Assembly (NCBI GenBank): GCA_030654835.1
Contig: JAURWS010000030.1
Coordinates: 248,001-312,000 of the forward strand
DNA from: Gammaproteobacteria bacterium
Lineage (GTDB): Bacteria > Pseudomonadota > Gammaproteobacteria > Pseudomonadales > Pseudohongiellaceae
DNA length: 64,000 nt
Direction of reading: 5' to 3'
The translations under genes and the position numbers were made by a program. The notes below the pieces were generated by a model, which saw only the letters and a list, made by a program, of their open reading frames with translations, searched no databases and had not been told where the DNA came from. This document shows positions 31,155 through 64,000 of this stretch, piece by piece (position 1 is the stretch's first letter; each line of letters starts with the position of its first letter).

Positions 31155-31209
31155 TTTCGTTTCAAAACAAAAGCTTCCCATCGACTGGTGCTGACATTTG
31201 GAGACTTAC

Positions 31210-31782: not shown

Positions 31783-31839
31783 TTGCTTTCCGCTCTTTCC
31801 AACCCCCACTCCTTCCAAACCAATGGTGCAGGTGAAATC

Positions 31840-35108: not shown

Positions 35109-35161
35109 ATACGCCCCTTCGCTTTCTCCCCACCAAAATTTCATTCCACAGGAACTCTGTT

Positions 35162-36526: not shown

Positions 36527-36557
36527 TGCCTTCAATAAGCCCCTGCGAAGTCTCACC

Positions 36558-40308: not shown

Positions 40309-40348
40309 AGCCAGAACAGCCAGAGTCAATCTCACAGGTACAGAAACC

Positions 40349-42939: not shown

Positions 42940-42970
42940 CGCATCAACCCCTGACGCATCAACCTCAGAC
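42926..42970. repeat. Three 15-bp tandem repeats over the wzx stop codon
   Basis: GCGTCAACCTCTGAC, GCATCAACCCCTGAC and GCATCAACCTCAGAC follow each other exactly. The first contains the flippase stop (TGA at 42937-42939). It looks like slippage or duplication at the gene end. Confidence 0.8.
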
Positions 42971-42994
42971 GAATAAATCTTTAAGGGAGCCCTT

Positions 42995-44965: not shown

Positions 44966-44966
44966 G

Positions 44967-44994
44967 GAAGCTACGCCTTCAGCTTCAGGGTTTT
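44967..44994 (+). terminator. Weak hairpin after amidotransferase 1
   Basis: GAAGCT (44967-44972) and AGCTTC (44981-44986) can pair around an 8-base loop just after the stop, followed by AGGGTTTT. This is a weak terminator or attenuator candidate in front of a 153-bp gap. Confidence 0.3.
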
Positions 44995-45147
44995 ACCCGA
45001 TAGCGATGACGTCGCGGTCACTCTATTCTCAGTTTTCTACTCTCCTTACCTCCTGCTCCACTCTTCGGTGTCGAGCAGGGATGGGACGAAGTCTGCGCTT
45101 TCAATCGGTTAACCATCACCACCACATGACTATCAGGTAACAGCACG

Positions 45148-46248: not shown

Positions 46249-48524
46249 AGCTGCAGAAACTGTTGACGATGACACCGGCCGAGATGGCCTTCCGCGGGCG
46301 TCAAGCCGTGCTCAAGACCATGGAGCGCGTCAGTACCTCCCCTTTGGACAACATTCGGCAAGTGAGTGAGTTCTTTCATTGCCTCGATGAAAATCCTGAT
46401 GATGGCGATAGTCCGGCCTCTCTCTTCAAGCGTGGCTATCCGGAGTATGCCACGCAGAGTCTGCAGTCCGGGTTCCAGGCCGCAGCGCCGCAGCGGTTTT
46501 TCAGTGGAGCCAGCGATACCCTGACACCCGAGCTGATCAACAGCTATCTGCCACAGGACGCCGCTGCCATCATCCGCTCGGCCGATGCTGTGTGTGCAGG
46601 GTGCTTTGAGACACTTGGCTATGGCGCTCTGCGTTTCTTCGACAAACACCACAAGAACAGAATCAACTGGCATCTGGATGCCGTGTCCGGACAGGTGGCT
46701 CCTCTGCTGCACTGGAGCCGCATCAACCCCTTGAATTTTTCTCAGGTTGGTGACAGCAAGGTTGTTTGGGAATTGAACCGGCAGCAGTGGCTGATGACGC
46801 TGGGGCTGGCGTGGCAACTCTCGGGCAACGAACGGTATGCACAGGTATTCATGAAGCACGTGAGCACCTGGATGCAGGACAATCCCGCTGGTTTCGGCAT
46901 CAACTGGTGCAGCTCGCTCGAAGTGTCCTACCGGCTGATCTCGTGGTGCTGGGCTTTGGTGCTGTTCAGGCACTCCGCGTCTCTGTCGCCGCATGCGCAA
47001 TTGTGCATGATGTCCTGGCTGGAGGCCCATGCGACTCACATCGAACGCTATTTATCCGTGTACTACTCTCCGAATACGCACCTGACCGGCGAGGCACTGG
47101 GGTTGTTTTACGCGGGCGTGTTGTTTCCCGAGATCAATGGCGCCATGCGCTGGCGTGCACTGGGTCGGCGTATCCTGCTCGAACAGATGGAACGGCAGGT
47201 GCACGACGATGGCGTGTACTTCGAGCAGTCCAGTCGCTATCAGTACTACACCGTCGAGATCTATTTGCATTTCATGATCCTGTCACAGCGCCACGGCGAC
47301 CAACTGCCCGTCGGCTTCGCGACACGGTTGCAATCGATGCTGGACTTTCTGCTGAATCTGCGGCGCCCTGATGGCACCTTTCCGCAACTGGGCGATACGG
47401 ATGGTGGTTCTCTGCTGCCTCTAATGAGCAGAGTGCCAGGAGACTTCAGTGCGCTCTTTTCTGTGGCGGCGTCCTTGTTTCGTCGGGAAGATTATGCCTG
47501 GGCGGCAAGCGGCAGCACGCCTGAACTAATCTGCCTGCTCGGCCCTGCTGGCCATTACGGATATCTGTCACTCCAGCATAAAGCGCCACGCGTAATGGCG
47601 TCTCAGCTGTATCCCGACGGTGGCTATGTGGTCATGCGTAGCGACTGGCGCGAGCGCGGACACCAGCTGATTCTTGATATCGGCCCACTGGGGTGTCCGG
47701 ACAGCGCAGCGCATGGGCACGCCGATCTGTTGTCCATTCAATGCAGTGCTTTTGGTGACAACTATCTGGTCGACGCGGGCACCGGCAACTACACCGCCGA
47801 TCCTGCCTGGCGCAACTACTTTCGCAGCACGCAGGCGCACAACACCGTCACTGTCGATGGCATGTCACAGATGGAGCCCGATGGTCCATTTGGATGGCAG
47901 GGCCGACGTTCACGCGTGCAACTGCTCAGCTGCAGAAGCGATTCCCAGATGGCATTCGTGGATGCCAGTCACGATGCCTGGGCGAGGATGCCAGATCCGG
48001 TGCTGCACCGCCGCCGCATCGCTTTCGTCAGGCAACGTTACTGGGTGATGGTCGATGATCTGAGCGCACAACAAGCTCACAAGTTTGAATTGCATTTTCA
48101 GTTCGCGCCGATTGCAGTGACGCTGGAAGAAGGAGGCTGGTCTCGTGCTCTGGGGGACGGCGGCAGTTGCCTTCTCATGCACACCAGTGCTACCAGCCCT
48201 GTCCACTGCAAACTCCGCACCGGGGAACTCGATCCACCTGCTGGCTGGATATCGGATAACTATGGGCATCGCGCTCCGGCTCCCGCTTTGCACTGTTCCG
48301 CAGAATCTGCCGAGCCCGTGCGCTTTATCACCATTCTGCTGCCGGAGTCAGAAGCGGACGCCCCGGTTCCGCGCATTACGATCAACCGCTCCACCACGAC
48401 TGGCGATCATCAGTTGCAGATTCAGTTCCACAAAGCGCATCTCACAAAAAACCATGTGGAAGTGATCGACATATCCGACACCGACATCGTCATCACACAA
48501 GGAGAACTGCCGTGTGCGGAATAG
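46245..48524 (+). CDS. Heparinase II/III-family protein (possible polyuronate lyase)
   Basis: A 759-residue protein with an alpha/alpha toroid N-terminal half ('YLSVYYSPNTHLTGEALGLF', 'YYTVEIYLHFMILSQRHGDQ') and a heparinase II/III beta-sandwich half ('AHGHADLLSIQCSAFGDNYL', 'NYTADPAWRNYFRSTQAHNT'). Members include alginate lyases of PL17. There is no signal peptide, so it either acts in the cytoplasm or has a role in polymer turnover or synthesis as in other EPS loci. It is translationally coupled to the GT before and the amidotransferase after. Confidence 0.82.
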   Translation: MKLQKLLTMTPAEMAFRGRQAVLKTMERVSTSPLDNIRQVSEFFHCLDENPDDGDSPASLFKRGYPEYATQSLQSGFQAAAPQRFFSGASDTLTPELINSYLPQDAAAIIRSADAVCAGCFETLGYGALRFFDKHHKNRINWHLDAVSGQVAPLLHWSRINPLNFSQVGDSKVVWELNRQQWLMTLGLAWQLSGNERYAQVFMKHVSTWMQDNPAGFGINWCSSLEVSYRLISWCWALVLFRHSASLSPHAQLCMMSWLEAHATHIERYLSVYYSPNTHLTGEALGLFYAGVLFPEINGAMRWRALGRRILLEQMERQVHDDGVYFEQSSRYQYYTVEIYLHFMILSQRHGDQLPVGFATRLQSMLDFLLNLRRPDGTFPQLGDTDGGSLLPLMSRVPGDFSALFSVAASLFRREDYAWAASGSTPELICLLGPAGHYGYLSLQHKAPRVMASQLYPDGGYVVMRSDWRERGHQLILDIGPLGCPDSAAHGHADLLSIQCSAFGDNYLVDAGTGNYTADPAWRNYFRSTQAHNTVTVDGMSQMEPDGPFGWQGRRSRVQLLSCRSDSQMAFVDASHDAWARMPDPVLHRRRIAFVRQRYWVMVDDLSAQQAHKFELHFQFAPIAVTLEEGGWSRALGDGGSCLLMHTSATSPVHCKLRTGELDPPAGWISDNYGHRAPAPALHCSAESAEPVRFITILLPESEADAPVPRITINRSTTTGDHQLQIQFHKAHLTKNHVEVIDISDTDIVITQGELPCAE

Positions 48525-50503
48525 CAGGAATACTCAAGTTCGATGCAGAAGCGAACGTGAGTGAGGGCGTGCTGGTGCAGATGAGAGAGACGATTCGGCA
48601 TCGCGGGCCCGACGGAGCAGGCACCATGGTGCAAGGTCGCATCGGTCTTGCACATCGGCGGCTGGCCATCATCGATATCGACGGCGGGCCACAGCCCATG
48701 CCGAACAATGCGCGTGACTGTTGGATTACCTACAACGGCGAGCTGTACAACTACAAGACTTTGCGAGCAGAGCTGGAGGCCGTTGGTTGCGAATTCAACT
48801 CACAATCTGATACCGAGGTTCTGCTGCGCGCGTACGAAGTATACGGTGATCTCTGCGTCGAAAAATTTGAAGGCATGTTCGCGTTTGCAGTATGGGACGC
48901 CCGTCAGAAAAGTCTGTTCATGGCACGCGACCGGCTGGGAATCAAACCGCTTTACTACAGCGTATCGGAGTCAGAGCTGCGCTTTGCCTCAGAGGTCAAG
49001 GCTCTGCTGGTAGAGCCCACACAGTCGCATACCTTCAACGCTGCCGTGCTGCCAGACTTTCTTGCCAATCGCTATCTCGCAGGCAGTGAAACTTTTTTTA
49101 CTGGAGTTCACAAATTGCTGCCAGCACACACGTTGCGGTGGACAGCCAAAGAGGGATTCAGGCAGCGCCACTACTGGCAACCCCCGCTTACCAACGAAGA
49201 CCCGCAGGGTACCAGAGCGGATTACGTGGAACAGGTGCGTACGACGTTGAAAGAAGCCGTGCGAAGTCATCTGATCAGCGACGTCCCGATAGGACTCTTC
49301 CTCTCCGGTGGTCTCGATTCGACGGCACTGGCTGCCATCATGGCCCCAATGCTCGACGCACCGATCAAGACCTTTTCCGTGGGCTTCAGCGACGCATCAG
49401 CCAACGAATTGGGCTACGCCAGAGCTGCCGCGGAAGCCGTCGGTGCCGAGCACCGGGATATGGAGGTAACAGCAGAGCAGTTCTTTGCGGCACTCCCTCA
49501 TCTCATCTGGCATGAAGACGAACCTCTTGCCTTCACTTCCAGCGTCCCGCTGCATCTGTTGTCGAAGCTCGCCAGCGAACATGTGAAGGTGGTACTGACC
49601 GGTGAGGGCGCCGATGAACTGTTCATCGGCTACGACTATCGCTACCGCATGACAGCATTCAATCAACGCTGGGGGCAGCGCTTCAACCGTGTGAGCTCTG
49701 CGCGCAGCCGTGCCCTTGTGGCCGAATTTATTCCACGTCTTCCATATGGTATTCGTCGCTACGCGGAACGCAGCTTCATGTCACTCGGCACAGAGCCTCG
49801 CGAATTATTCTGTGAGAATTTCTCCGTGTTCCGCGCGCCGCATCGGGAAGCGTTGTTGAAGGAAAAATTCCAACATCCGGTCGATCCGCTTGTCGATATA
49901 TCCGTTGATCCTCATCGCCATACTCTGGAATTTTTCGCAGCGGCTGGTGACGACATTGTGCAGTGCATGAGTCACGCCGACCTGCAGACTTATCTGGTGG
50001 AATTGCTGATGAAACAGGATCAGATGAGCATGTCCGCGTCACTGGAAAGCCGCGTGCCCTTTCTCGACAACCGTCTGGTGGATCTGGTCGCTGCCATTCC
50101 CGCACGTTTCAAGATGCAGGGTTGGGAAACCAAATCACTGCTGCGTGAAGCGGTTCGCGACATTATTCCTCCCGCTATTCTGCAGCGCCGGAAAATGGGG
50201 TTCCCGGTTCCTTTCGGCGACTGGCTGAGAGGCCCATTCTGGAACCTGCTGGAAAGCGTCGTACTGGGACGCCGGGCTCGTGCCAGAAGGTTACTGGATG
50301 CACATGCAGTGCGCCAGCTGGCATACGAACATCGCCTCGGCAAAGCAGATCATGGTGAACGACTGTGGTTGTTGCTCAACCTGGAAATATGGCAGCGCAT
50401 CTTTGTCGACGGCGATCATCCCTCCGCTGTCTATTCGGATAATCCCCACGTTGAAGAACTGGTTCATCACTCACGCCGCTCCGGCGCCATTCTGACGAGT
50501 TGA
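48512..50503 (+). CDS. Asparagine synthase-type amidotransferase 2
   Basis: A 663-residue paralogue of the protein at 42995. The start is GTG with AAGGAG upstream, giving 'MCGIAGILKFDAEANVSEGV', so the nucleophile Cys2 is intact. 'RHRGPDGAGTMVQGRIGLAH' and the PP-loop 'FLSGGLDSTALAAI' are present, as is 'VPFLDNRLVDLVAAIPARFK'. The two copies are clearly diverged in sequence, so they may amidate different uronic acids or lie at different steps. The start overlaps the heparinase-family gene by 13 bases. Confidence 0.86.
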   Translation: MCGIAGILKFDAEANVSEGVLVQMRETIRHRGPDGAGTMVQGRIGLAHRRLAIIDIDGGPQPMPNNARDCWITYNGELYNYKTLRAELEAVGCEFNSQSDTEVLLRAYEVYGDLCVEKFEGMFAFAVWDARQKSLFMARDRLGIKPLYYSVSESELRFASEVKALLVEPTQSHTFNAAVLPDFLANRYLAGSETFFTGVHKLLPAHTLRWTAKEGFRQRHYWQPPLTNEDPQGTRADYVEQVRTTLKEAVRSHLISDVPIGLFLSGGLDSTALAAIMAPMLDAPIKTFSVGFSDASANELGYARAAAEAVGAEHRDMEVTAEQFFAALPHLIWHEDEPLAFTSSVPLHLLSKLASEHVKVVLTGEGADELFIGYDYRYRMTAFNQRWGQRFNRVSSARSRALVAEFIPRLPYGIRRYAERSFMSLGTEPRELFCENFSVFRAPHREALLKEKFQHPVDPLVDISVDPHRHTLEFFAAAGDDIVQCMSHADLQTYLVELLMKQDQMSMSASLESRVPFLDNRLVDLVAAIPARFKMQGWETKSLLREAVRDIIPPAILQRRKMGFPVPFGDWLRGPFWNLLESVVLGRRARARRLLDAHAVRQLAYEHRLGKADHGERLWLLLNLEIWQRIFVDGDHPSAVYSDNPHVEELVHHSRRSGAILTS

Positions 50504-50506
50504 CAC

Positions 50507-51853
50507 ATGAGTAACATGCGGCTGAACGGCAGCACAAAAGACATGAGCACCAGGGGCGCCAGTTCCGATGGCATGAATGCTGCGGACATGCACTCTGCCG
50601 GGGTGCTCCTCGGCCATACCCCCCTGCGCATTCTCTGGGTGAAGATGGGCGGCTTGTGGCCTGCCAACTCCGGCGGTCGACTGCGCAGCTATCACATGAT
50701 CAACGAGCTGTCCCGCGACAATGATGTCACCGTGCTCACCACCCACTCTTCCGACGAAAGCACGAGTGCACTCAGGGCGCATCTTCCTTACTGCAAAAGG
50801 ATTGATTCGCGGCCCTTCTCTCCACCCAAGAGCACCAGCAAGGCATTTCTCCTCTCTCTGGCGGCCTCCTGGCTGTCACGATTGCCTGTGGATGTTTACA
50901 AGTACCAGCTTCCCGAGTTGCGTCGTGAGGTCCAATTCCTTCTGGCTGGTGGCAACTTTGATGTCTGTATCGCGGATTTCATGACGGCAATTCCCAACGT
51001 TGCCATGACGGGTGCGACCCCGGTGGTGTTCTTCTCGCACAACGTCGAATACATGATCTGGCAGCGGCTGCGGGACAACGAACCCTCGTGGCTGAAGCGC
51101 GTGCTGCTGTCCATCGAATGGCGCAAGATGCGGCGCGCGGAGAAGCGCGCCTGCCGTGCCGCCGTAGCCACCATCGCGGTTTCTGCCGAGGATGCGCGCA
51201 AGCTGCGGGAGAACTGCGAGCACGCCCACGTAGACTCTGTGAACACCGGCGTGGATATCGATTACTTCACGGCCAACAGCACCGTTGCCAAAGATCCGTT
51301 TGCCATTGTCTTCAGTGGCTCAATGGATTGGCATCCCAATGAAGACGCGATGCTCTACTTCATGAAGGACGTGTTCCAGAAAGTGCGGGCGCAAGTTCCC
51401 GAGGCAACCTTGAGTATCGTCGGTCGTCATCCGTCACAGCGATTACGCACAGCGGCCATGCTGGCGGGAGCAGAAGTCACAGGAACGGTTACAGACATTC
51501 GGCCGTGGCTGGACAAGGCCGCTGTCTACATTGTGCCTCTGCGCATCGGCGGAGGGACGCGCTTGAAAATTTACGAGGCCCTGTCGATGGGCAAGGCAGT
51601 GGTCTCCACCACCATCGGCGCTGAAGGCTTGAGCCTGCTCGACGACGTTCATCTGCTGCGGGCCGATACCACTGAGACCTTTGTGAACAGCATTGTAATG
51701 CTGTTGAAGAATCCCGAAATGCGGACCTCACTCGGCGATGCTGGGCGGCAGTTGATGGAAGAAAACTACGGCTGGTCAAAAATCGCCGTGCAATTTGAAT
51801 CCTTGTGTCGTGCGGCCATAGCCGACAAATCCGGCAACGCGCCGCACTCCTGA
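50507..51853 (+). CDS. Glycosyltransferase, GT4 family (exosortase-locus type)
   Basis: A 448-residue GT-B enzyme with an N-terminal extension of about 40 residues before 'LRILWVKMGGLWPANSGGRL'. Its donor domain has 'FSGSMDWHPNEDAMLYFMKD' and 'PLRIGGGTRLKIYEALSMGK'. It resembles the TIGR03087-like transferases of PEP-CTERM/EPS systems. The 3' end is 47 bases before the sugar dehydrogenase gene. Confidence 0.78.
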   Translation: MSNMRLNGSTKDMSTRGASSDGMNAADMHSAGVLLGHTPLRILWVKMGGLWPANSGGRLRSYHMINELSRDNDVTVLTTHSSDESTSALRAHLPYCKRIDSRPFSPPKSTSKAFLLSLAASWLSRLPVDVYKYQLPELRREVQFLLAGGNFDVCIADFMTAIPNVAMTGATPVVFFSHNVEYMIWQRLRDNEPSWLKRVLLSIEWRKMRRAEKRACRAAVATIAVSAEDARKLRENCEHAHVDSVNTGVDIDYFTANSTVAKDPFAIVFSGSMDWHPNEDAMLYFMKDVFQKVRAQVPEATLSIVGRHPSQRLRTAAMLAGAEVTGTVTDIRPWLDKAAVYIVPLRIGGGTRLKIYEALSMGKAVVSTTIGAEGLSLLDDVHLLRADTTETFVNSIVMLLKNPEMRTSLGDAGRQLMEENYGWSKIAVQFESLCRAAIADKSGNAPHS

Positions 51854-51900
51854 AGACCAAACACGCTCCAATCATTTTTTTTGACAACCAAGGGAATTCC

Positions 51901-53220
51901 ATGAAAACGATCAGCATTTTCGGTCTCGGTTATGTCGGCTGCGTCAGCGCCGCCTGCTTCGCCAACGCGGGCTTCAAGGTCATTGGCGTCGATGTGAATG
52001 CAGACAAGGTCAACTTGTTGAACGAGGGCAAGTCCCCCATTGTTGAACCCGGTCTGGACGAGTTGCTTGCGGAAATGGTCGCCAACGGCCGCCTGCGCGC
52101 CACGCAATCGTGTGAGGACGCCATCAGGAATTCCGACTTGGCATTCATCTGTGTCGGAACGCCCGGCAATGAGTTCGGCCAGTTGCAGCTATCGGCGTTG
52201 CGTCGTGTGAGCCAGGAGATCGGCGCAGCGTTGAAGACCGACAGTCGCCGCTATACCGTCGTCGTGCGTAGCACAGTGCTGCCGGGCACCACGCTCAAGA
52301 CTGTTTGCGGGCCGTTGCATGCGGAAGCAGGTGCCTATGCCAGATCGCGTATAAAGGTCGCGGTTAATCCAGAGTTCATGCGCGAAGGCACGGCACTCAA
52401 GGATTTTGCCAACCCTCCTTACACACTGATCGGCTGTGAGGACGACGCCACTACTGAACTGTTGCGAACACTCTATGAAGGCGTCAAGGCCCCCTTTATT
52501 GTGACGCAGATTTCCACCGCGGAAACCGTCAAGTATGTTTCCAACACCTACCACGCGTTGAAGGTCTGTTTTGCCAATGAGATTGGCGATGCCTGCGACC
52601 GCCTCGGGGTGGACGCGCAGGAAGTCATGCGCATTTTCAGGATGGACACCAAACTCAACGTGTCGGAAGCCTATCTGCGGCCAGGTTTTGCATTCGGTGG
52701 TTCGTGTCTGCCGAAAGACGTCAAGGCTCTGCTCTACGCCGCGCATCATTTGAATGTCCAGATGCCACTGCTCAATGCCATCCTGCCTTCCAATAATGGA
52801 CAGATCGAACGCGCAATCAACACCATCATAGCCTCGGGCGCCAGACGTATCGGTGTCGTCGGTCTTTCCTTCAAGGCCGATACTGATGATCTGCGGGAAA
52901 GCCCCATGGTGAGAGTCGTCGAGTCACTGCTTGGCAAAGGGTTGATGGTGAGAATTCTGGATGCGAACGTCGCGATCGCCAAACTGACTGGCGCCAACCG
53001 CCGCTATATTGTCGAGGAGATTCCCCATATCTCGATGCTGATGTGCGACTCCGCTGCAGATCTGGTAGACCATGCAGAACTGCTGGTGATCGGCAGCGAC
53101 AGTGCAGAAGCGGTGCAGGTGCTGGAGCAGACGAAATCATTCCAGACGGTGATTGATCTGACGCGAGGCTGGCTTCGCATCAAAGTGGACGCCAATGTTC
53201 AAAAAAGGGCCGCGGCGTGA
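51901..53220 (+). CDS. GDP-mannose 6-dehydrogenase, AlgD-like
   Basis: A 439-residue nucleotide-sugar dehydrogenase close to Pseudomonas AlgD (436 residues). The NAD motif is 'ISIFGLGYVGCVSAACFANA'; 'GKSPIVEPGLDELLAEMV' and 'RSTVLPGTTLKTV' follow; the catalytic Cys is C269 in 'FAFGGSCLPKDVKAL'; 'GLSFKADTDDLRESPMVRVV' is near the C-terminus. It should make GDP-mannuronate, the alginate precursor, which would put mannuronic acid in this EPS. A UDP-glucose dehydrogenase role is less likely on motif grounds. The ATG at 51901 has AGGGA upstream. Confidence 0.8.
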   Translation: MKTISIFGLGYVGCVSAACFANAGFKVIGVDVNADKVNLLNEGKSPIVEPGLDELLAEMVANGRLRATQSCEDAIRNSDLAFICVGTPGNEFGQLQLSALRRVSQEIGAALKTDSRRYTVVVRSTVLPGTTLKTVCGPLHAEAGAYARSRIKVAVNPEFMREGTALKDFANPPYTLIGCEDDATTELLRTLYEGVKAPFIVTQISTAETVKYVSNTYHALKVCFANEIGDACDRLGVDAQEVMRIFRMDTKLNVSEAYLRPGFAFGGSCLPKDVKALLYAAHHLNVQMPLLNAILPSNNGQIERAINTIIASGARRIGVVGLSFKADTDDLRESPMVRVVESLLGKGLMVRILDANVAIAKLTGANRRYIVEEIPHISMLMCDSAADLVDHAELLVIGSDSAEAVQVLEQTKSFQTVIDLTRGWLRIKVDANVQKRAAA

Positions 53221-54878
53221 AGACTACTGTCAGTATCGGGCTGGGCATCCTCCTGCTGACGCAGTTGGCATTTGCGTTGCCGGAGCGCGCTGTCGAACTG
53301 CCGGGTATCTCGGGTATCTCGGGTGTTTCGGGCATCGCGGGCATCTCGGGAGTGTCGAGAGCCCCGAGAGCCCCGGATGCGTCCGGCCGCACGGTGCGCC
53401 TGGGGCCAGACGACGATCTCCAAGAGGCACTGAATCGAGCGGTCTCCGGCGACGTCATCGAGCTGCAGGCAGGGGCGGTCTTTTACGGACCCTTTGTGTT
53501 GCGACCACACCCAGGGTCCGGCTGGGTCACAATCATCAGCCGTTCCGACGCACAGCATCCGTTGCCGCCAGCCGGCACCCGAGTGACACCGGCGGATGTA
53601 TCTGCCATGGCGTCACTGGTGGCGACGACCGGTTCGGTTATCAGCACCGCTGCAGCTGCGTCCCGCTATCACTTCATTGGCGTCGAGGTTCGCCCCGGTC
53701 AGCGTGACAGTATTCTCGATCAGGTGTTAGGCGGACTGGGCACACTCACCACTCTTGTCGACCTCGGCGCTGGCAACAACAGTGCGGACAACATGCCGCA
53801 TCACATCGTTTTTGAACGCAGTTATCTGCACGGTGATCCTGTGCTGGGCACGCGTCGGGGGATCGCGATGAACGGGGCGCACCTGGCGGTGATCGATTCT
53901 CATCTTGCCGACTTCAAAAGTATGGAAGACTCGCAGGCCGTTGGTGGGTGGGAGGGCAGTGGCCCGTTCTTGCTGCACAACAACTATCTGGAAGCAGCGG
54001 GAGAGAACGTCATGTTCGGTGGCGCAGACCCGAGCATCAAGGAGCGCATTCCTGCGGACATTACGGTGACAGGCAATCACTTCGCAAAGCCGTTGTCCTG
54101 GCGCCGCGCTGACCCAACGCACGACGGCTCGAATTGGACCGTGAAAAATCTTCTGGAACTGAAGAGCGCCAGACGCGTGTTGATTGACGGCAATCTTTTT
54201 GAGCACCACTGGCCGCAGGCGCAAAACGGTTTTGCTATCCTCTTCACAGTGCGCAATCAGGATGGTGACGCTCCATGGTCGCAGGTGGAGGACGTGACCT
54301 TCTCCAACAACATCGTGCGCAGAGTGGCGGCAGGCATCAATATTTTGGGCTATGACGACAATCACAAGAGTCGACGCACCCAGCACGTGCACATCAGGAA
54401 CAATCTTTTTCACGACATCGGTGGGGACTGGGGCAGTGGAGTGTTGCTACAACTTCTCAACAGTCCCGCGCACATCCAGTTTACTCACAACACTTCACTG
54501 CAAAGTAATGCGCTTTTGCGCATGGACGGTGATCCGATTCCCGCTGTCGACTTCCGCTGGAATATTTTTATGGACAACAGCGTTGGCATCAGTGGCACGA
54601 ACACCGCCCCCGGTCAGCACAGCATCGATACTTACCTGGGTACGCCAGTGACGATTGCAGGGAATGTGCTGATTGGGTCCGGTGACCATGATTATCCGTC
54701 GGGCATTACCCGCGTCGACGCTATCAACAGCATGCCTTTTACCGATCCCGCGCGGGCAGACTTTCGCCTGCAGGCCGAGTCCGCGAGTGTGATAGCGGAT
54801 TTTGCCGAAGTGCCCGGCGTGGATTTCACTGCGCTGTGCTCTGCCCTGTCCACTACCGAGCGTCCTGTCTACTGCTAA
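53217..54878 (+). CDS. Secreted right-handed beta-helix protein
   Basis: A 553-residue exported protein. A signal peptide ends about residue 20 ('LTQLAFALPE'), then a six-fold G-[IV]-[SA] tripeptide run (about residues 30-47) serves as a linker. The rest has the repeated beta-helix pattern with ladders such as 'VIDSHLADFKSMEDSQAVGG', 'HNNYLEAAGENVMFGGADPS' and 'FSNNIVRRVAAGINILGYDD'. Such proteins include polysaccharide lyases, C5 epimerases of the AlgG type, and surface binding proteins. The start is GTG overlapping the previous stop (GTGA). In the context of the AlgD-like enzyme, a uronate epimerase or lyase is the leading guess. Confidence 0.72.
   Translation: MKTTVSIGLGILLLTQLAFALPERAVELPGISGISGVSGIAGISGVSRAPRAPDASGRTVRLGPDDDLQEALNRAVSGDVIELQAGAVFYGPFVLRPHPGSGWVTIISRSDAQHPLPPAGTRVTPADVSAMASLVATTGSVISTAAAASRYHFIGVEVRPGQRDSILDQVLGGLGTLTTLVDLGAGNNSADNMPHHIVFERSYLHGDPVLGTRRGIAMNGAHLAVIDSHLADFKSMEDSQAVGGWEGSGPFLLHNNYLEAAGENVMFGGADPSIKERIPADITVTGNHFAKPLSWRRADPTHDGSNWTVKNLLELKSARRVLIDGNLFEHHWPQAQNGFAILFTVRNQDGDAPWSQVEDVTFSNNIVRRVAAGINILGYDDNHKSRRTQHVHIRNNLFHDIGGDWGSGVLLQLLNSPAHIQFTHNTSLQSNALLRMDGDPIPAVDFRWNIFMDNSVGISGTNTAPGQHSIDTYLGTPVTIAGNVLIGSGDHDYPSGITRVDAINSMPFTDPARADFRLQAESASVIADFAEVPGVDFTALCSALSTTERPVYC
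53304..53357. repeat. Six 9-bp repeats coding G-[IV]-[SA]
   Basis: Six imperfect 9-bp units of the type GGTATCTCG lie just after the signal peptide of the beta-helix protein. They give a flexible tripeptide linker. Confidence 0.75.
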
Positions 54879-54896
54879 CACCTCTCTACTGCTAAC
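54869..54896. repeat. Direct repeat over the stop codon of the beta-helix gene
   Basis: CTACTGCTAAC occurs at 54869-54879, containing the TAA stop, and again at 54886-54896. The period is 17 bp. It is similar in kind to the repeat at 42926-42970. Confidence 0.7.
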
Positions 54897-54934
54897 TGAT
54901 CCCTTCACTGACAACCGCTCTCTGGAGTTCACGC

Positions 54935-56065
54935 ATGACAGCCTTATTCTGGTTCAGCGCGCTTATGTTGTTCTATGTATTTATCGGCTACCCCCTGCTG
55001 ATACTTCTGTGGTCGCGGCTGCGCGGTCGTCCTGCCCGCAGTGCACACTATGAACCCACGCTCAGCGTGCTGATTGTGGCGCGCAATGAGCAGGCCACGA
55101 TCAGGAAGAAGTTGATCAATCTACTGGCCATGGATTACCCCATGTACAAGGTGGAGATCGTGGTTGTCTCGGATGCTTCCAACGACGCCACCGACGCAAT
55201 TCTTGGTGAATTCAAATCCCCAGGCGTGGTGATCAAGACCGGGCTCGCGCAACGCGGAAAACCTGCAAACCTCAATGAGTGCGTCCCGGGACTGCGGGGC
55301 GACATCGTGATCCTGATGGATGCCAGGCAGGAAATTGAACGCGGTTTTGCACGTGCACTCGTGAGAAATTTCAGCGATCCGGAAGTGGGCGCCGTCAGCG
55401 GTGAACTGATGCTGGCCCCGGTTTCTGCACACTCCGGAGCGGCAGCCAGTGGCGTCGGATTCTACTGGCGCTACGAAAAGTTCCTGCGGCGTCTGGAATC
55501 CACTATCGACTCATCGGTCGGCGCCACCGGTGCGCTGTATGCGATACGCAGAACACTTTATCGACCTGTGGCGCCGGATACGTTGCTCGATGATCTGTTG
55601 ATTCCAATGAATATCGTACGTCAGGGGTACCGCGTCATATTCGAACCAGACGCTATCGCGCTCGATGCTGCTCCCGTGTCGGCCAGCAGTGAATTCCGCA
55701 GAAAAGTGCGCACAATTGCCGGCAACTTTCAATTGTTTTCCCGCGAGACGTGGCTGCTGAATCCGGTGGCCAATCGGCTGTGGTTGCAGACGATCTCGCA
55801 CAAGTTTTTCCGCTTGACGGCACCGGTGTTTCTGGCGCTGCTCATGATCAGCAACTTCTTTTTGATCGACAGTCCATTCTTCCAGATGACACTGATTGCC
55901 CAGTTGCTTTTCTACAGCGCGGCGCTGGGTGGTCTGGTGTCGGAATCCCGCTGGAAAAGTTATCGCGCACTCGCCATCCCCTATGCATTCTGCGTCCTCA
56001 ACTGGGCCACAGTCATCGGTTTTATCCGCTTCATGTTCAAGCAACAAAAAGTGATGTGGAAGTAG
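54935..56065 (+). CDS. Membrane glycosyltransferase, GT2 family
   Basis: A 376-residue processive-looking GT-A transferase. An N-terminal helix ('FSALMLFYVFIGYPLLILLW') precedes 'LSVLIVARNEQATIRKKLIN'. The donor and base-site motifs are 'VVVSDASNDATD', 'RGKPANLNECVPGL', 'IVILMDARQEI' and 'LLDDLLIPMNIVRQGY'. Two or three C-terminal helices start at 'LTAPVFLALLMISNFFLIDS'. The usual QxxRW is replaced by a related 'FRRKVRTIAGNFQLF'. It could add a sugar or polymerise a chain. Confidence 0.8.
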   Translation: MTALFWFSALMLFYVFIGYPLLILLWSRLRGRPARSAHYEPTLSVLIVARNEQATIRKKLINLLAMDYPMYKVEIVVVSDASNDATDAILGEFKSPGVVIKTGLAQRGKPANLNECVPGLRGDIVILMDARQEIERGFARALVRNFSDPEVGAVSGELMLAPVSAHSGAAASGVGFYWRYEKFLRRLESTIDSSVGATGALYAIRRTLYRPVAPDTLLDDLLIPMNIVRQGYRVIFEPDAIALDAAPVSASSEFRRKVRTIAGNFQLFSRETWLLNPVANRLWLQTISHKFFRLTAPVFLALLMISNFFLIDSPFFQMTLIAQLLFYSAALGGLVSESRWKSYRALAIPYAFCVLNWATVIGFIRFMFKQQKVMWK

Positions 56066-56120
56066 AACACCACTCCCCATCCGCCCTTCGTAATAACATT
56101 CAACCAAGTGAGGAAACAAA

Positions 56121-57074
56121 ATGATCTATCTGGTCACCGGTGGTGCTGGTTTTATCGGGTCACATATCGCTGCACATCTCTGCTCACTCGGAGCAGACGT
56201 ACGCGTTCTGGACAATTTTTCCACAGGCAAGCGCGAGAATCTCGACGGACTTCCTGTCACGCTGATTGAGGGAGATATTCGTGATGCTGCCTGCGTCGCG
56301 GCCGCTGTCGAGGGCGTCGACACCATTTTCCATCAGGCAGCACTGTGCTCTGTTTCGCGCTCGATGCAAGACCCGGCATCAACGCATGACGTCAACGTCA
56401 ATGGCACGGTGACTCTGCTCGATGCGGCGAGAAAGGCAGGCACAAGACGCTTTGTGATGGCATCCTCGTCTTCAGTGTACGGTGACTCGGACGTTTTCCC
56501 GAAACACGAAGACATGCGGACTGATCCGCTGTCGCCCTATGCAGTGTCCAAGCTGATCTGTGAATTCTATTGCCAGCTTTACTGGAAAGCGTTCGGGCTG
56601 GACACGGTAGCGCTGCGTTATTTCAACGTGTTTGGTCCGCGTCAGGACCCACATTCGGAATACTCCGCTGTGATTCCGCGCTTTGTGCACGCGATGGTGC
56701 AGGGAGCATCACCGCATATTTACGGTGATGGTTTGCAGTCCCGTGATTTCACGTTCGTAAACGATGTGGTGCAGGCCAATATGGCTGCCGCCAGCAGTTC
56801 TTATTCACCAGGACAGGTCATGAATATTGCCTGCGGCAATCGCTGGACTCTGATCGATCTGATCAACAGCCTGGAAAAAATACTGCAACGTCAGACGCGA
56901 CCAGTATTTGAAAGTGCCCGGCGCGGCGACGTAAAACATTCGCAGGCGAGCATCCGCAAGGCGCAAACCATGATTGGCTTTGCGCCCGAAGTGATGTTCG
57001 ACGATGGGCTGCGCAAGACCGTCGACTGGTTTACTGCGAAGGAAATGCCGCAACAACTGCGTGTCGCGGTTTAG
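56121..57074 (+). CDS. NAD-dependent sugar epimerase, WbpP-like UDP-GlcNAc 4-epimerase
   Basis: A 317-residue extended short-chain dehydrogenase. The NAD motif is 'VTGGAGFIGSHIAAHLCSLG', the catalytic triad has Ser in 'VMASSSSVYGDS' and YxxxK in 'SPYAVSKLICEFY', and the substrate segment is 'RYFNVFGPRQDPHSEYSAVI'. The absence of the long GalE extension and the small residues favour UDP-GlcNAc/UDP-GalNAc epimerases (WbpP type) over GalE. It is the last plus-strand gene of the EPS locus. Confidence 0.8.
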   Translation: MIYLVTGGAGFIGSHIAAHLCSLGADVRVLDNFSTGKRENLDGLPVTLIEGDIRDAACVAAAVEGVDTIFHQAALCSVSRSMQDPASTHDVNVNGTVTLLDAARKAGTRRFVMASSSSVYGDSDVFPKHEDMRTDPLSPYAVSKLICEFYCQLYWKAFGLDTVALRYFNVFGPRQDPHSEYSAVIPRFVHAMVQGASPHIYGDGLQSRDFTFVNDVVQANMAAASSSYSPGQVMNIACGNRWTLIDLINSLEKILQRQTRPVFESARRGDVKHSQASIRKAQTMIGFAPEVMFDDGLRKTVDWFTAKEMPQQLRVAV

Positions 57075-57115: not shown

Positions 57116-59023
57116 TCAGTCAACAAGAAGGGTCACGTCCTCTACAGCCGCATTTACATTGTAGAGAGCGGTGCCAGCGAACAGTCGGTTCTCTGCCGTG
57201 TATTCAGAGGAGTAGAAGACAGTGCCGTTGTGCGCGTAGGAGGCGCGACCTGCGTTGATGCTGATGCTGAAACGGTCGCCGTCCTGATAGCGGATTTCCG
57301 CACGGTAATTGCCACTCTCACGGACCTCTGCCATTCCACTTTGCAGTCGCAACCCCAGCACCAGATCTTCCGCTACCGGTATCTCCTGGGTCTGTGAAAA
57401 TCCAGCGAGCATGAGCGCCCAGGACGACCCGACAGTAAACTCCATGTGCGCGTGGTCGGCAGTGAGAGCCTCTTCAGAAATGGAGCCGGCATCCCCGCAG
57501 CCATCACAACCGGAGGTTTTGGTGATCCGGTTGCCTGCCACCGTAATGTTGCGTGTCGTCTGCCAATGCACGGAGGAGGACGCTGGCGCATCATCTGAAC
57601 CTGAGTCATCTGAACCTGAGTCATCCGAACCCGAGTCATCCGAATCCCAATCATAGGAATCCGAGCCAATCGAGTTGTCCGTGACACCAGTCAACAGATG
57701 CCCTGGCACGTGCACAATGAAAGCATCAAGTCGAGACCCTCCCATGTTGCTGGTCCACAGGAAATAGCGCCCAGTGATGTCCAGATTGCCCTTGGCGTAA
57801 CGGGCGTACTCGTTGTCTCCACCCGGTGCGTCCAGATCGGTCATCAGCGGAGCTACCACCAACGAAGTCGAAGAGCCGTCCATGTTGAAACAGACGACCT
57901 CATTGGCATGGATTCCTTTGGAGCGATTGATGCTGCTGCCACAGGCATACTGCTGACTCGGCGCCACGCCTGACTGGGCATTGGTGTGGGAGACGTGGGC
58001 CGGTGCAAACACATTCCAGTCCTTGTTGTAATAGACACGCTTGCCCTTGAGCGACTTCTCATTGAAGTCCCAAAGCTTCCAGGTGTTCGCATCAGAGGCC
58101 CAGTTGTCGGCGGCAATCATGTAGCCGTGCCCCATGTCGGAGTGCCCGGCCGCACCGTCCTTGTCACGAATAATGCGCTCGTCGCCGGTTCTCAGGTTGA
58201 CGACCAGATTGTCCTCGCCATCCCTGCCATCAAGATTGGCCTTGACCACCAGCCACTCTCCGCTGCGATCGACCTGGCACTCATCGAAGTCCTGAGTGAT
58301 CGGGTAGTAATGGTACTGACGGCCATCTTCCTCATAAGCCATACACCCCAGAACCCGATAATTGCCGCTGTCGCGGACGGTCGCCGAATGTACGCGATCA
58401 TTGTCGCTGGTGTGCATCTGGGTCAACACCACGCCGCTGCCAAGTTGATCCGAAATATCCACTACCGTGCGCATCTCTTCCGTAATGACATCGAAGCGGA
58501 CAATGCGGGGTCCATCGTTGATGTACAGAGTCGTGGGCAGCGTGGCACTGAAATACCAACCTTCCCCTGTCGCCCAGCTAAGATGATTTCTGGACGGAAA
58601 CAGCGGCCCCAAATCCTTCAGTTCACCGCTCACTTTGTTGAACTCAAACAAGGTCGGCCCCTTTCCTCCACGTGTCTGATCAAGCCCCAGAAAGATCAGC
58701 ATCGATTCCTTGCCGACATGATTGTTCATGTTGCGCCAGTAAGAGTAGCCCGCGTAATTCACACAGTCATTGCCTGCGCAGTCGGTCGCATTCGTCAAGC
58801 GCACTGCGTCGCTGTTGTAGGGCGCGGGAAATCTGAATACGCCACGCTGTGGGATGAAGCTGCGTAATGCACTTGCGTCGATGAGCGTTCTTACTGCTGA
58901 TTTGTTCGGCGTTTCAAGAAATCCTCCTCGTGCAGGTTGTGCCGATAAAAAGGGTGTGTGTAAAAAACTGAAGGTGGCTGCCAGAGCACACACGCTTCTC
59001 ATTACATACTGCTTTTCTTTCAT
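57116..59023 (-). CDS. Secreted two-domain protein, paralogue A (unknown function)
   Basis: A 635-residue exported protein. The signal peptide ends about residue 30 ('LHTPFLSAQPA'). Residues about 40-450 are a repeated beta-strand domain with signatures 'VGYSYWRNMNNHVG'-like ('YAGYSYWRNMNNHVGKESML'), 'HSDMGHGYMIAADNW' and 'SHTNAQSGVAP', probably a beta-propeller. A Ser/Asp linker of five-residue repeats (DSGSD type) follows near residues 455-478. Residues about 490-635 form a lectin-like jelly roll ('SVHWQTTRNITVAGNRITKT', 'ASYAHNGTVFYSSEY'). Similar propeller folds occur in polysaccharide lyases, but no catalytic assignment is possible. It is a paralogue of the protein at 59177. Confidence 0.7.
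   Translation of the reverse strand: MKEKQYVMRSVCALAATFSFLHTPFLSAQPARGGFLETPNKSAVRTLIDASALRSFIPQRGVFRFPAPYNSDAVRLTNATDCAGNDCVNYAGYSYWRNMNNHVGKESMLIFLGLDQTRGGKGPTLFEFNKVSGELKDLGPLFPSRNHLSWATGEGWYFSATLPTTLYINDGPRIVRFDVITEEMRTVVDISDQLGSGVVLTQMHTSDNDRVHSATVRDSGNYRVLGCMAYEEDGRQYHYYPITQDFDECQVDRSGEWLVVKANLDGRDGEDNLVVNLRTGDERIIRDKDGAAGHSDMGHGYMIAADNWASDANTWKLWDFNEKSLKGKRVYYNKDWNVFAPAHVSHTNAQSGVAPSQQYACGSSINRSKGIHANEVVCFNMDGSSTSLVVAPLMTDLDAPGGDNEYARYAKGNLDITGRYFLWTSNMGGSRLDAFIVHVPGHLLTGVTDNSIGSDSYDWDSDDSGSDDSGSDDSGSDDAPASSSVHWQTTRNITVAGNRITKTSGCDGCGDAGSISEEALTADHAHMEFTVGSSWALMLAGFSQTQEIPVAEDLVLGLRLQSGMAEVRESGNYRAEIRYQDGDRFSISINAGRASYAHNGTVFYSSEYTAENRLFAGTALYNVNAAVEDVTLLVD
57591..57665. repeat. Five 15-bp tandem repeats coding the DSGSD linker
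   Basis: The units at 57591, 57606, 57621, 57636 and 57651 are variants of TCATCTGAACCTGAG. The first two are identical and the later ones degenerate. Read on the minus strand, they give an acidic five-residue repeat between the two domains of paralogue A. Confidence 0.85.
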
Positions 59024-61378: not shown

Positions 61379-61493
61379 AATTTTCTCTCTAGCGACGATT
61401 ACTCATCGAAACTCCTTGTGGCGTGGATTGGAAAATCCATATCAGGTGTTTACCCGGTAGGAGTGCGAATAGAACAGATTTTTGCCGGGCTGA

Positions 61494-61513
61494 TGTAACG
61501 TTGACGTAACAAT
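61494..61513. promoter_or_regulatory. GTAAC direct repeat upstream of paralogue B
   Basis: GTAACG at 61495-61500 and GTAACA at 61506-61511, an exact 11-bp period. The flanks are similar to the site at 59151-59170. It is about 116 bp from the paralogue B start. The element could serve both paralogues and possibly the rsbT-like gene. Confidence 0.55.
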
Positions 61514-61560
61514 CTATTAAATTGCGATAGTTAAGAGGGCTGGAGCACAGACCAGATTTG

Positions 61561-61669
61561 AGGTCATCACCTGCTTGCTTGCGAGGAAAAAAAGCAGTGA
61601 TTCAGCGTCAGGTCATCACCCGATCACTTGCGACGAAACGAAGCGCCAGTCCAGTTTCAGGTCATTACC
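61561..61669. repeat. Three direct repeats with an exact 49-bp period
   Basis: AGGTCATCACC at 61561, AGGTCATCACC at 61610 and AGGTCATTACC at 61659, with further similarity after each (CTTGCGA and related). The array ends 86 bp before the rsbT-like start and could bind a regulator of the signalling genes. Confidence 0.8.
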
Positions 61670-61754
61670 CGATGCTCTGTGACGGAGATGCGGAGTAATC
61701 TTTTCGCTACATATATCGGCAGGAATCCCTGTCAGGAAACGGAGAGTTTTAGAA

Positions 61755-62240
61755 ATGAGAGAAGAATCAGTCGGTTATTTGTCGAGCGTAGAAAATGATT
61801 TTTTATTCAGTCGAAAGATGGATCCCGATGCGTTTGAAGAGTCAGCCACAATAAAAATTGAAAACCCGCGGGACATTGTGAATGCGCGACAGAAAGGAAG
61901 AGTAATGGCACAGGAAGTTGGCTGTTCCTCCACTCAAGCCACGCTGGTCGCAACAGTGATCTCCGAGCTTTCCAGGAACATCATTCTCTACGCCGGTTTT
62001 GGAGAGATGGTGCTAAAGAACATCACCAAAGATTCACGCATAGGTCTGCAGATTGTCGCCAGCGACGATGGGCCTGGCATACAGAATATCGCCAGAGCCA
62101 TGATGAATGGATTCTCGACATCAGGTGGACTTGGGCTGGGGCTTTCCGGAGTAAAACAGATTGCAGACAGCTTTCAGATCAAGAGTGAGCCCGGCCATGG
62201 CGTGAGAATAGAACTCATAATATGGCTGGCGAGGAAATAA
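61755..62240 (+). CDS. RsbT-like serine kinase / switch protein
   Basis: A 161-residue GHKL ATPase-fold protein close to Bacillus RsbT. From about residue 35: 'DIVNARQKGRVMAQEVGCSS', the N-box region 'ISELSRNIILYAGFGEMVL', then 'SDDGPGIQNIARAMMNGFST' and 'SGGLGLGLSGVKQIADSF', all as in RsbT. RsbT phosphorylates RsbS/RsbR stressosome proteins and, when released, binds the N-terminal domain of the phosphatase RsbU. Here no RsbS or RsbR gene is in view, while the next gene has an RsbU-like input domain. The first 33 residues are an extension with no family match. ATG at 61755, GGAG upstream. Confidence 0.87.
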   Translation: MREESVGYLSSVENDFLFSRKMDPDAFEESATIKIENPRDIVNARQKGRVMAQEVGCSSTQATLVATVISELSRNIILYAGFGEMVLKNITKDSRIGLQIVASDDGPGIQNIARAMMNGFSTSGGLGLGLSGVKQIADSFQIKSEPGHGVRIELIIWLARK

Positions 62241-62368
62241 ATCCCTAGTTAAAGCATGGACATAGTGCGCGAATTGTTTTTGAATTGTTCGGTACAGTAC
62301 AGAGAAAATCGGACTCCATGCCATACTCCCCGTCGTTTGGATGAATCGAAAACGGAAGAGAGATCATA

Positions 62369-63295
62369 ATGACAAAAACTGAAAATCCGCGGCAGCAAGT
62401 GTATCAAGAACTCTTGAGTGCGTACTTGACAAGTGGTGGTGGTGAAAAAGCGCTGACAGTGGCTTACGAAATTGGTAGAAAAGATTTGCAGAATGGCATA
62501 GGGCTTCTGGAAATTGCGGAGACTCACCAGCAGGCACTAAATGAGACGCTGAGCATGGCGAATGATTGCGTTGCGACACAGAGTGCAATGAACAGAGCTG
62601 CGAGTCATTTTCTCAAAGAGGCCCTGTCTGCTTTTGAAGTATCTAGGCTTTGTAATCGTCAGACCAACGACGTATTGATCAAGCTGTACGATGTGTTTGA
62701 GAATGAAGCCAAACGCATTGCGCATCGCCTCCACGACGAATCGGCACAGATGCTGGCAGTGGTCTATCTGGAGCTGGCAGAGATCGCAAATAGTTCGCCG
62801 GGCGACACTGCAAAACGCATTGGGGACGTTGTGGGACATCTTGACCAGGTGTCTTCTCAACTGCGTAGCCTGTCACATGAACTGCGTCCCATTATTCTGG
62901 ATCGACTGGGGCTCATGCCGGCACTGCGAGCACTCGCGGACGGGGTTAGAAAAAGGAGTCAGTTGCTCATAGAGGTCACTGGAGACACCGAAGGGAGACT
63001 TTCTGCATCACTCGAGATCGTTCTCTATCGTGCCGTTCAGGAGGCACTCGCGAATGTCTGTCGCCACGCGCGGGCGAGTCACGTCGATGTACATGTGTGG
63101 CGCGAAGCCAATTCGTTGTACTGTGCAGTGAGTGACGACGGCATCGGCATCCAGTTGTCCACGGATGGCACGACAATTTCACAAGGGCTGGGCCTGATCG
63201 GCATCACCGAACGCGCAAGAGCACTTGGTGGCATTTGTGACGTGTCTTCACGACCAAACTTTGGCACCACATTACAGGTCACTGTCCCATTATGA
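62369..63295 (+). CDS. Soluble histidine kinase with RsbU_N-like input domain
   Basis: A 308-residue protein without membrane segments. Residues 1-80 match the N-terminal RsbU dimerisation domain: 'VYQELLSAYLTSGGGEKALT', 'VAYEIGRKDLQNGIGLLEIA', 'THQQALN'. Residues about 110-180 form a HisKA_3 dimerisation domain with the phospho-acceptor H122 in 'RIAHRLHDESAQ'. The HATPase domain has an N-box in 'QEALANVCRHARASHVDV', G1 'SDDGIGI' and G2 'GLGLIGITERARALGG'. It overlaps the response regulator start by four bases. The input domain suggests direct control by the RsbT-like protein encoded upstream. Confidence 0.85.
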   Translation: MTKTENPRQQVYQELLSAYLTSGGGEKALTVAYEIGRKDLQNGIGLLEIAETHQQALNETLSMANDCVATQSAMNRAASHFLKEALSAFEVSRLCNRQTNDVLIKLYDVFENEAKRIAHRLHDESAQMLAVVYLELAEIANSSPGDTAKRIGDVVGHLDQVSSQLRSLSHELRPIILDRLGLMPALRALADGVRKRSQLLIEVTGDTEGRLSASLEIVLYRAVQEALANVCRHARASHVDVHVWREANSLYCAVSDDGIGIQLSTDGTTISQGLGLIGITERARALGGICDVSSRPNFGTTLQVTVPL

Positions 63296-63936
63296 TAAAG
63301 CATAAAACCAAGCGTGTTGTAGTTGCGGATGATCATGTCATGTTTCGGCAGGGCTTGATCGCGATGCTCAATGGCGATGAATTCAACGTGGTGGGCGAAG
63401 CCGAAGATGGTCATGAAGCCATTCGCGTCGTACGCAATCTGACTCCGGATCTGGCCATACTGGATTTCAGTATGCCGCTGCTGAATGGTATCGATGCCGC
63501 GCGTGACATTCAGCGCCGCTCACCCAATACCCATGTGGTGCTGCTAACCATGTATGACGACGACGCGTGCGTGCTGGAAGCGCTCAGGGCCGGTGTGCGC
63601 GGCTATGTACTGAAGTCACAGACCACCGCGGATCTGGTCGTAGCGCTGCGCGAGGTCATCCAAGGTTCGGTATATCTGAGCCCGGGCATTTCCGACTCAG
63701 TCGTCAGCATCTATATTTCCAAAAGCAATGCAGATTCCGAAGTGCTTAGCGAACGAGAGCGCCAGGTGCTCCAGTTGATCGCCGAAGGGCATACAACCAA
63801 GTCCATCGCGTCGATGCTGTTCGTCAGTGTCAAGACAGCAGAATCCCATCGGACGCACATCATGCAGCGTCTGGATATTCATAACATCGCCAGTCTGGTT
63901 CGTTACGCGATTCGTCGCGGCATGATCAAAGCTTGA
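63292..63936 (+). CDS. NarL/FixJ-family response regulator
   Basis: A 214-residue regulator. The receiver (residues 8-125) has the acidic pair in 'VVADDHVMF', the phospho-acceptor D58 in 'LAILDFSMPLLNG', the Thr in 'LLTMYDDD' and the Lys in 'VLKSQT'. The LuxR-type DNA-binding domain is 'LSERERQVLQLIAEGHTTKS' followed by 'VKTAESHRTHIMQRL'. It should be phosphorylated by the kinase just upstream (ATGA overlap). A GTAAC-type direct repeat upstream of the secreted paralogues is a candidate target. Confidence 0.92.
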   Translation: MIKHKTKRVVVADDHVMFRQGLIAMLNGDEFNVVGEAEDGHEAIRVVRNLTPDLAILDFSMPLLNGIDAARDIQRRSPNTHVVLLTMYDDDACVLEALRAGVRGYVLKSQTTADLVVALREVIQGSVYLSPGISDSVVSIYISKSNADSEVLSERERQVLQLIAEGHTTKSIASMLFVSVKTAESHRTHIMQRLDIHNIASLVRYAIRRGMIKA

Positions 63937-63967
63937 GAGTGCTCCTGATTGCAAAGAGGCAAACAGC

Positions 63968-64000
63968 TTGAACATAGTGCTGGCAGATGATCATGCCATG
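63968..64000 (+). CDS. Second response regulator, 5' end only (cut by window edge)
   Basis: Eleven codons are visible: TTG start at 63968, then 'NIVLADDHAM'. The acidic pair with the following His and Met is the usual start of a NarL/FixJ receiver, like the regulator just upstream. GAGG precedes the start. Only the first residues are in view, so the output domain is unknown. Confidence 0.6.
   Translation, partial: MNIVLADDHAM

Follow-up and report, generated by a model that had tools for sequence, protein, structure and literature searches.

The stretch of DNA considered here (the window) comprises 64,000 nucleotides of contig JAURWS010000030.1 in the Gammaproteobacteria bacterium assembly GCA_030654835.1 (Pseudohongiellaceae), positions 248,001 to 312,000 of the forward strand. 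Near its right end it carries an rsbT-like gene, a gene for a histidine kinase that begins with an RsbU_N domain, and genes for LuxR-type response regulators. The original prediction, made from the letters alone, had named the RsbT-like gene, the kinase and the first regulator; all three are present on the plus strand at the positions below, and their identities were confirmed with Pfam and with RsbT of Lysinibacillus. The genes and domains of this run are as follows.

61755..62240, plus strand: rsbT-like gene, 161 amino acids (aa), a HATPase core extended at its N-terminus by about 30 poorly conserved residues
62369..63295, plus strand: soluble histidine kinase, 308 aa, in the order RsbU_N, linker, HisKA_3, HATPase_c
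62402..62641, plus strand: RsbU_N domain (PF08673), kinase residues 12-91, from Pfam and from a profile match to solved RsbU N-termini
62711..62893, plus strand: HisKA_3 phosphoacceptor domain with the motif RLHD, from Pfam
63292..63936, plus strand: response regulator RR1 (REC domain and LuxR-type helix-turn-helix), its first 4 bases shared with the 3' end of the kinase gene
63968..64000, plus strand: start (TTG) of RR2 (208 aa), the second LuxR-type response regulator, from Pfam, continuing past the end of the window (L002 3969-4595)

Sequence comparison places the gene at 61755-62240 among the genuine relatives of RsbT. Its product is 40.6% identical to RsbT of the Lysinibacillus sigB gene run (E 1e-31), whereas RsbW of the same run gives no meaningful match (E 1.6), which rules out an anti-sigma, RsbW-like identity. 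The SpoIIAB model of NCBIfam reaches 40 bits on the protein, far below its cut-off of 135. An RsbT profile has SpoIIAB as its best PDB match (1til, E 2.5e-10), with no RsbT-named chain among 22 matches, and the window RsbT used as a single-sequence PDB query found no match. Over its full length the protein is 73% identical to its counterpart in a genome of the same genus (G005) and 60% to that in a genome of the same family (G027); the genome that holds the window is G000.

The kinase and its LuxR-type regulator are, by their domains, a NarL/DesK-type two-component system with HisKA_3 (28.4 bits, Pfam cut-off 24) and HATPase_c (45.7 bits, cut-off 26.4), and H122 of the RLHD motif is presumably the phosphoacceptor, as in the family. 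A Pfam scan of the kinase found no PP2C/SpoIIE phosphatase domain. The proposal that the kinase opens with an RsbU N-terminal-type domain holds: residues 12-91 match the RsbU_N profile with 40.6 bits and E 2.9e-10 over a cut-off of 25.5. A profile of 13 such N-termini has as its top PDB matches four B. subtilis RsbU N-terminal sequences (2j6z with E 1.1e-17, 2j70, 1w53 and 2j6y), and the next match, apparently a designed protein, follows at E 4.5e-4. Twelve rows of this profile come from relatives, some of them more RsbU-like than the window protein, which passes Pfam alone and which found no PDB match when its N-terminus was the lone query. A chance RsbU_N match is ruled out by the Pfam score together with the RsbU N-termini as best profile matches. 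The AlphaFold model of the kinase, with a mean predicted local distance difference test score (pLDDT) of only 70.2, has four helices as its N-terminal domain (7-85), then residues modeled with low confidence (88-116), then the dimerization and histidine phosphotransfer part and the catalytic part; its top Foldseek matches are VraS and DesK. The domain in the window kinase is the only RsbU_N domain found in its genome, and when the genome collection was scanned with the kinase, just two distant kinases came up, 30-33% identical over the core.

RsbT residues are numbered here after the B. subtilis protein. According to the eLife 2025 study, the contact is made by RsbU E24, Y28, I74 and I78 and by RsbT R19, R23 and N24, and RsbU R91 pairs with RsbT D92 (PMC12143880). 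The equivalent of RsbU E24, which is E26 in the window kinase, is kept in 13/13 aligned rows, and the equivalents of RsbT R19 and R23 are kept in all six genomes with this kinase type (window, G005, G027, G224, G380 and G401).

In three genomes rsbT, the RsbU_N kinase gene and the genes of both LuxR-type regulators are kept together as a syntenic block, each time next to the same polysaccharide cluster. The order kept in G005 and G027 is UDP-sugar dehydrogenase, a 553-aa protein, glycosyltransferase, epimerase, secreted-protein gene or genes, rsbT, kinase, RR1, RR2, GNAT and winged helix. In the genome of the window the GNAT gene lies beyond the window end after RR2 and is followed by an opposing lone OmpR-type winged-helix gene; RR2, GNAT and winged helix were missing from the earlier account. 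Two genomes of other families of the class, G224 and G380, have close homologs of the kinase (phmmer E 3e-76 and 3e-69) and of RR1 (E 2e-76 and 2e-75) behind rsbR, rsbS, rsbT and rsbX. Likewise, in G401 an rsbR-S-T-X run reaches one contig end, and the kinase, RR1 and a second rsbT stand at the end of another contig, with homologs of the UDP-sugar dehydrogenase (58%), glycosyltransferase (47%) and epimerase (50%) about 2-6 kb from the block. The two close rsbT copies of G401, one in rsbRSTX and one after a response regulator (L052 6608-7129 and L100 492-959), group with 99/95 support in the RsbT tree.

The three genomes with the block appear to have no stressosome. A profile of RsbS that also catches RsbR found no match at E<=0.1 in any of G000, G005 and G027, each rated 100% complete. 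The same profile found both RsbS and RsbR in 3/3 control genomes (G224, G380 and G401), among which G401 is the independent control since sequences of G224 and G380 went into the profile. No rsbX was found in the fetched loci of the three block-bearing genomes, to which that search was confined. The earlier idea that the genes link partner switching to transcription was not supported, as the canonical partners RsbS and RsbR were not found in the genome. At E<=0.001 G000 has four STAS matches, namely three sulfate permeases and one stand-alone STAS_2 protein on contig 32 (L005 1480-1815), whose neighbors read by eye as chemotaxis genes.

A search for the architecture across genomes, as the original prediction had proposed, found RsbU_N above the cut-off in 3/144 relatives, 8/369 members of the class and 9/398 of the phylum, which amounts to 18 distinct genomes with the own genome counted in each set. 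An rsbT lies in the fetched stretches around RsbU_N in 15/18 of them and RsbS or RsbR in 8/18, G401 being counted through its second contig; rsbT was not seen in the fetched stretches of G340, G607 and G622, two of which are short contigs. For 13 genomes a single RsbU_N protein each was scanned with Pfam, and all 13 have HATPase_c together with HisKA or HisKA_3, the HisKA_3 match being below the cut-off in G005, G224 and G630. This survey covers one copy per genome where second copies exist (G572, G579, G607, G630 and G644), and the remaining five genomes were read by eye, the output in G572 looking HD-type. A sub-threshold RsbU_N match in G009, which by eye looks like a DnaJ-type protein, and a match in G749 below the cut-off were discarded. 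At L059 8148-9206, RsbU_N precedes what by eye looks like an HD-type phosphohydrolase output, with an RsbT-like gene adjoining, and in G117, of the same order as the window, rsbR-S-T is followed by two longer proteins with RsbT-like parts (L098 5629-10376).

An unrooted RsbT tree, built without the RsbT of G047, splits the window clade, G019 and the G401 copies from the other nine rows (96/95). In the kinase-core tree G019 and the outgroups were not placeable, and two intended outgroup rows (L010 and L013) were left out. Most simply read, an ancestor linked to a stressosome lost R, S and X; the direction is not proven by the trees.

The syntenic locus of G019 encodes a kinase of 247 residues in which RsbU_N was not found at E<=0.01, with no trace by eye in three upstream frames. 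In the RsbT of G019 the R23 column holds T, with R one residue on, and the ATP-lid is altered. This pattern fits a joint function of RsbT and RsbU_N, as a single case in a contaminated draft (480 contigs, 7% contamination). The branch lengths are 4.42 for G019 against 0.69 for G027 in the RsbT tree, and 0.61 against 0.099 for RR1; the idea that RsbT of G019 decays faster than its RR1 is unsupported, as the branches are lengthened proportionally.

The reading favored here, with a probability of roughly 0.6, is that the block is a two-component system under RsbT control which has persisted after its stressosome was lost. By analogy with RsbU, RsbT would bind the RsbU_N dimer together with the flexible linker, order the linker and turn the kinase on, and the activated kinase would phosphorylate RR1 and perhaps RR2. 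Without a stressosome that holds RsbT, activity would be set by the amount of RsbT or by an unrecognized antagonist. At a guess, the outputs are the secreted-protein gene divergent from rsbT and the genes of the block, possibly with the polysaccharide cluster.

Several observations weigh against this reading. The equivalent of RsbU Y28 is not conserved in the kinases (it is T30 in the window), and those of RsbT N24 and D92 are replaced. The handshake between RsbT and kinase that had been proposed from the sequence thus stands as a plausible inference, given rsbT near most RsbU_N genes and the retention of E24, R19 and R23, and it is not proven because Y28, N24 and D92 are not kept. The gap of 128 bp between rsbT and the kinase gene makes a single transcript uncertain. 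There is no RsbT-specific acceleration in G019, since the RR1 branch is long in the same proportion, and RsbT may have another role because G019 keeps rsbT though its kinase lacks RsbU_N. RsbT without RsbS or RsbR nearby also occurs in G572, G579, G644 and G776, at locus level only, so that the absence in the block-bearing genomes may be less special. Finally, in V. vulnificus an interaction of RsbT with the downstream two-component protein was not obtained, and RsbU_N was not detected there (PMC9237108).

Other explanations of the block were weighed. RsbT proteins classically have a STAS partner. Canonical partner switching could therefore persist through an unrecognized STAS-type antagonist that sequesters RsbT and releases it on a signal, and the genome does have one stand-alone candidate in the STAS_2 protein of contig 32; this protein, however, is not matched by the RsbS profile at E<=0.1 and sits among the apparent chemotaxis genes, and such an arrangement is improbable. 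It could also be that the RsbU_N domain receives RsbT in a different sense. RsbT is a protein kinase in B. subtilis, and it might phosphorylate the histidine kinase on serine or threonine, or hold it off, instead of ordering the linker. RsbT-dependent phosphorylation has been suggested by Heinz et al. for downstream kinases without RsbU_N (PMC9237108). The window kinase, however, retains the domain, and linker-ordering activation of RsbU through the same domain has experimental support (PMC12143880), so that this alternative is considered unlikely.

That RsbT is a relic on its way out, with a kinase that is constitutive or senses something else, would suit the missing RsbR and RsbS as well as the kinase without RsbU_N and the diverged rsbT of G019. 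Yet the RsbT cores of G005 and G027 are 80% and 68% identical to that of the window, values close to those for the kinase core (67% and 72%), and the ATP-site motifs of RsbT appear intact in all three genomes, which leaves the relic very unlikely.

The favored reading of a two-component system under RsbT control may be extended, tentatively and with rather less confidence, to a stressosome-free switch in which RsbT would be a freestanding, dose-controlled co-activator of the kinase governing a polysaccharide and secreted-protein locus. The relatives would then be stages of disassembly: G401 with a full stressosome and a duplicated rsbT, G000, G005 and G027 in which RsbR and RsbS were not found, and G019 in which RsbU_N is gone too.

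Control through the supply of RsbT comes into consideration because the stretch upstream of rsbT carries a conserved dyad, triplicated in the window; that RsbT supply from its own promoter sets the activity is a first guess. The DNA elements are listed below.

61657..61672: exact copy of the 16-bp dyad TCRGGTN4ACCYGA, starting 98 bp before rsbT
61608-61623: dyad copy, exact, rsbT side
61559-61574: dyad copy with 2 mismatches, rsbT side
61557..61669, plus strand: 15-nucleotide direct repeat before rsbT, three copies spaced 49 and 49 bp start to start, every copy overlapping a dyad
61442..61457: dyad copy with 1 mismatch, divergent secreted-gene side
44985..45000: dyad copy with 1 mismatch in the gap between two polysaccharide-cluster genes, which may be chance

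The rsbT side has three dyad copies in the window and one each in G005 and G027. With at most one mismatch the dyad starts 85-98 bp before rsbT in G000, G005 and G027 and lies 70-82 bp before 6/9 secreted-protein genes, unlinked ones in G027 and G047 included; the shuffle values are partly circular for the upstream stretches of rsbT and of the secreted genes in the window, G005 and G027, from which the pattern was derived. Six secreted-gene upstreams lie outside that derivation. Three of them fit with at most one mismatch (G027 contig 21, G047 and G005 B), and three fit poorly (window B with 4 mismatches, G019 and G030 with 3 each). With up to two mismatches allowed, 14 sites match in the window where 7.2 would be expected, so that many of these are chance. 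The exact dyad occurs at three places in the G000 genome, two of them before rsbT, and in 6/12 genomes altogether, among them G023 (three places, no block found) and not G030; reversed-pattern controls over the 12 genomes gave one place in G000, one in G001 and four in G013. All 11 inspected exact dyads away from rsbT and the secreted genes fall within a predicted open reading frame. The 13-base half of the repeat, at up to one mismatch, has 33 places in the genome (reversed pattern 8) and is exact only at the three before rsbT.

The idea that RR1 or RR2 alone reads the dyad is unsupported: G047 has a single exact copy, before its secreted-protein gene, and its best RR1 match is only 33% identical, so that the reader may be another protein. 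Candidate readers are proteins read as Crp/Fnr-type whose genes lie near the block in G005, G027 and G224 (L051 5750-6469, L023 16193-17847 and L024 14406-15998), and one such protein of G005 is 73% identical to its G027 counterpart and 58% to that of G224. In the divergent region between rsbT and the secreted-protein gene, two GTAAC words stand 11 bp apart (61495-61510), visible also in G005, G027 and G019; an 11-bp direct repeat would, at a guess, be a fitting site for the OmpR-type winged-helix protein whose lone gene lies downstream. A search of 61300-64000 for sigma-70-like promoters found none.

Upstream of the divergent region lie the polysaccharide genes and two secreted paralogs, neither of a recognized family.

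29988..57074, plus strand: exopolysaccharide (EPS) cluster with outer-membrane barrel, chain-length protein, sugar transferase, heparinase II/III-like protein, UDP-sugar dehydrogenase, glycosyltransferases and epimerase
57116..59023, minus strand: secreted paralog B, 635 aa
59177..61378, minus strand: secreted paralog A, 733 aa, divergent from rsbT, with a low-confidence beta-propeller model

Matches to Pfam at 1e-5 were obtained for 8/10 cluster proteins scanned. XrtA-type NCBIfam models match five cluster proteins, every one below its cut-off, and the models above their own cut-offs are a general EPS sugar transferase and asparagine synthase. The model of paralog A (pLDDT 63) has a propeller-like part, and its second Foldseek match is an oligogalacturonate lyase (3c5m); from these, the protein is possibly a polysaccharide-acting enzyme, and its gene is a possible target of the rsbT and kinase system. 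The 200-bp upstream stretch of paralog B has no dyad, the best site having 4 mismatches. Relatives of the paralogs were found in 6/144 genomes, the own genome counted. A count of genomes with both rsbT and a secreted-protein gene (five) was discarded, as the rsbT of G047 belongs to another rsbR/S/T/X-type run.

The wiring had at first been thought undescribed, which the literature contradicts. RsbU_N-like domains are reported in signaling proteins downstream of rsbRSTX (Heinz et al., 2022, PMC9237108), and RsbU_N signaling proteins, histidine kinases included, are placed with rsbT and stressosome genes under a proposed RsbT control, one RsbU_N kinase being modeled in the later study (Heinz et al., 2022; eLife 2025, PMC12143880). 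These operons of Proteobacteria share with the window an RsbT and an RsbU_N fused to a signaling output, and close homologs of the window kinase and RR1 occur in the rsbRSTX settings of G224, G380 and G401. They differ in having rsbR, rsbS and rsbX, for which the block-bearing genomes gave the negative results described above.

In the sigma-B cascade of B. subtilis, RsbT and the RsbU N-terminal domain are likewise present, but the output is a PP2C phosphatase, RsbV/RsbW and sigma-B in place of a histidine kinase and LuxR-type regulators. The Lysinibacillus fusiformis run, read as rsbT-rsbU-rsbV-rsbW-sigB (NZ_CP130332.1, where rsbT is annotated as an anti-sigma regulatory factor), resembles the window in having rsbT and a target gene with no rsbR or rsbS annotated within 8.4 kb, the extent of a comparison made against an incomplete plasmid gene table; its output, unlike that of the window, is sigma-B. 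The RsbT-MtG system of Moorella thermoacetica reportedly includes a stressosome. There RsbT acts on an RsbU_N with a non-phosphatase output, as would be the case here, although that output is a diguanylate cyclase and not a kinase (Quin et al., 2012, as cited in PMC12143880). Within the open-access literature, with most subscription papers and preprints outside its scope, no publication was found on a set of RsbT and kinase that lacks a stressosome or is connected with exopolysaccharide. The link between RsbT, RsbU_N and a kinase has thus already been proposed in print, and the version without RsbS and RsbR looks new and testable.

RsbT has so far been studied as a protein freed by a large sensor complex. 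Its ordering of a linker has been proposed in print for kinases, whereas in the literature consulted a phosphatase is the demonstrated case and a diguanylate cyclase one known by citation. A small set of RsbT, kinase and regulator without the sensor would permit a clean test of whether a histidine kinase is activated by linker ordering, and the syntenic kinase of G019, naturally without RsbU_N, would serve as a built-in comparison.

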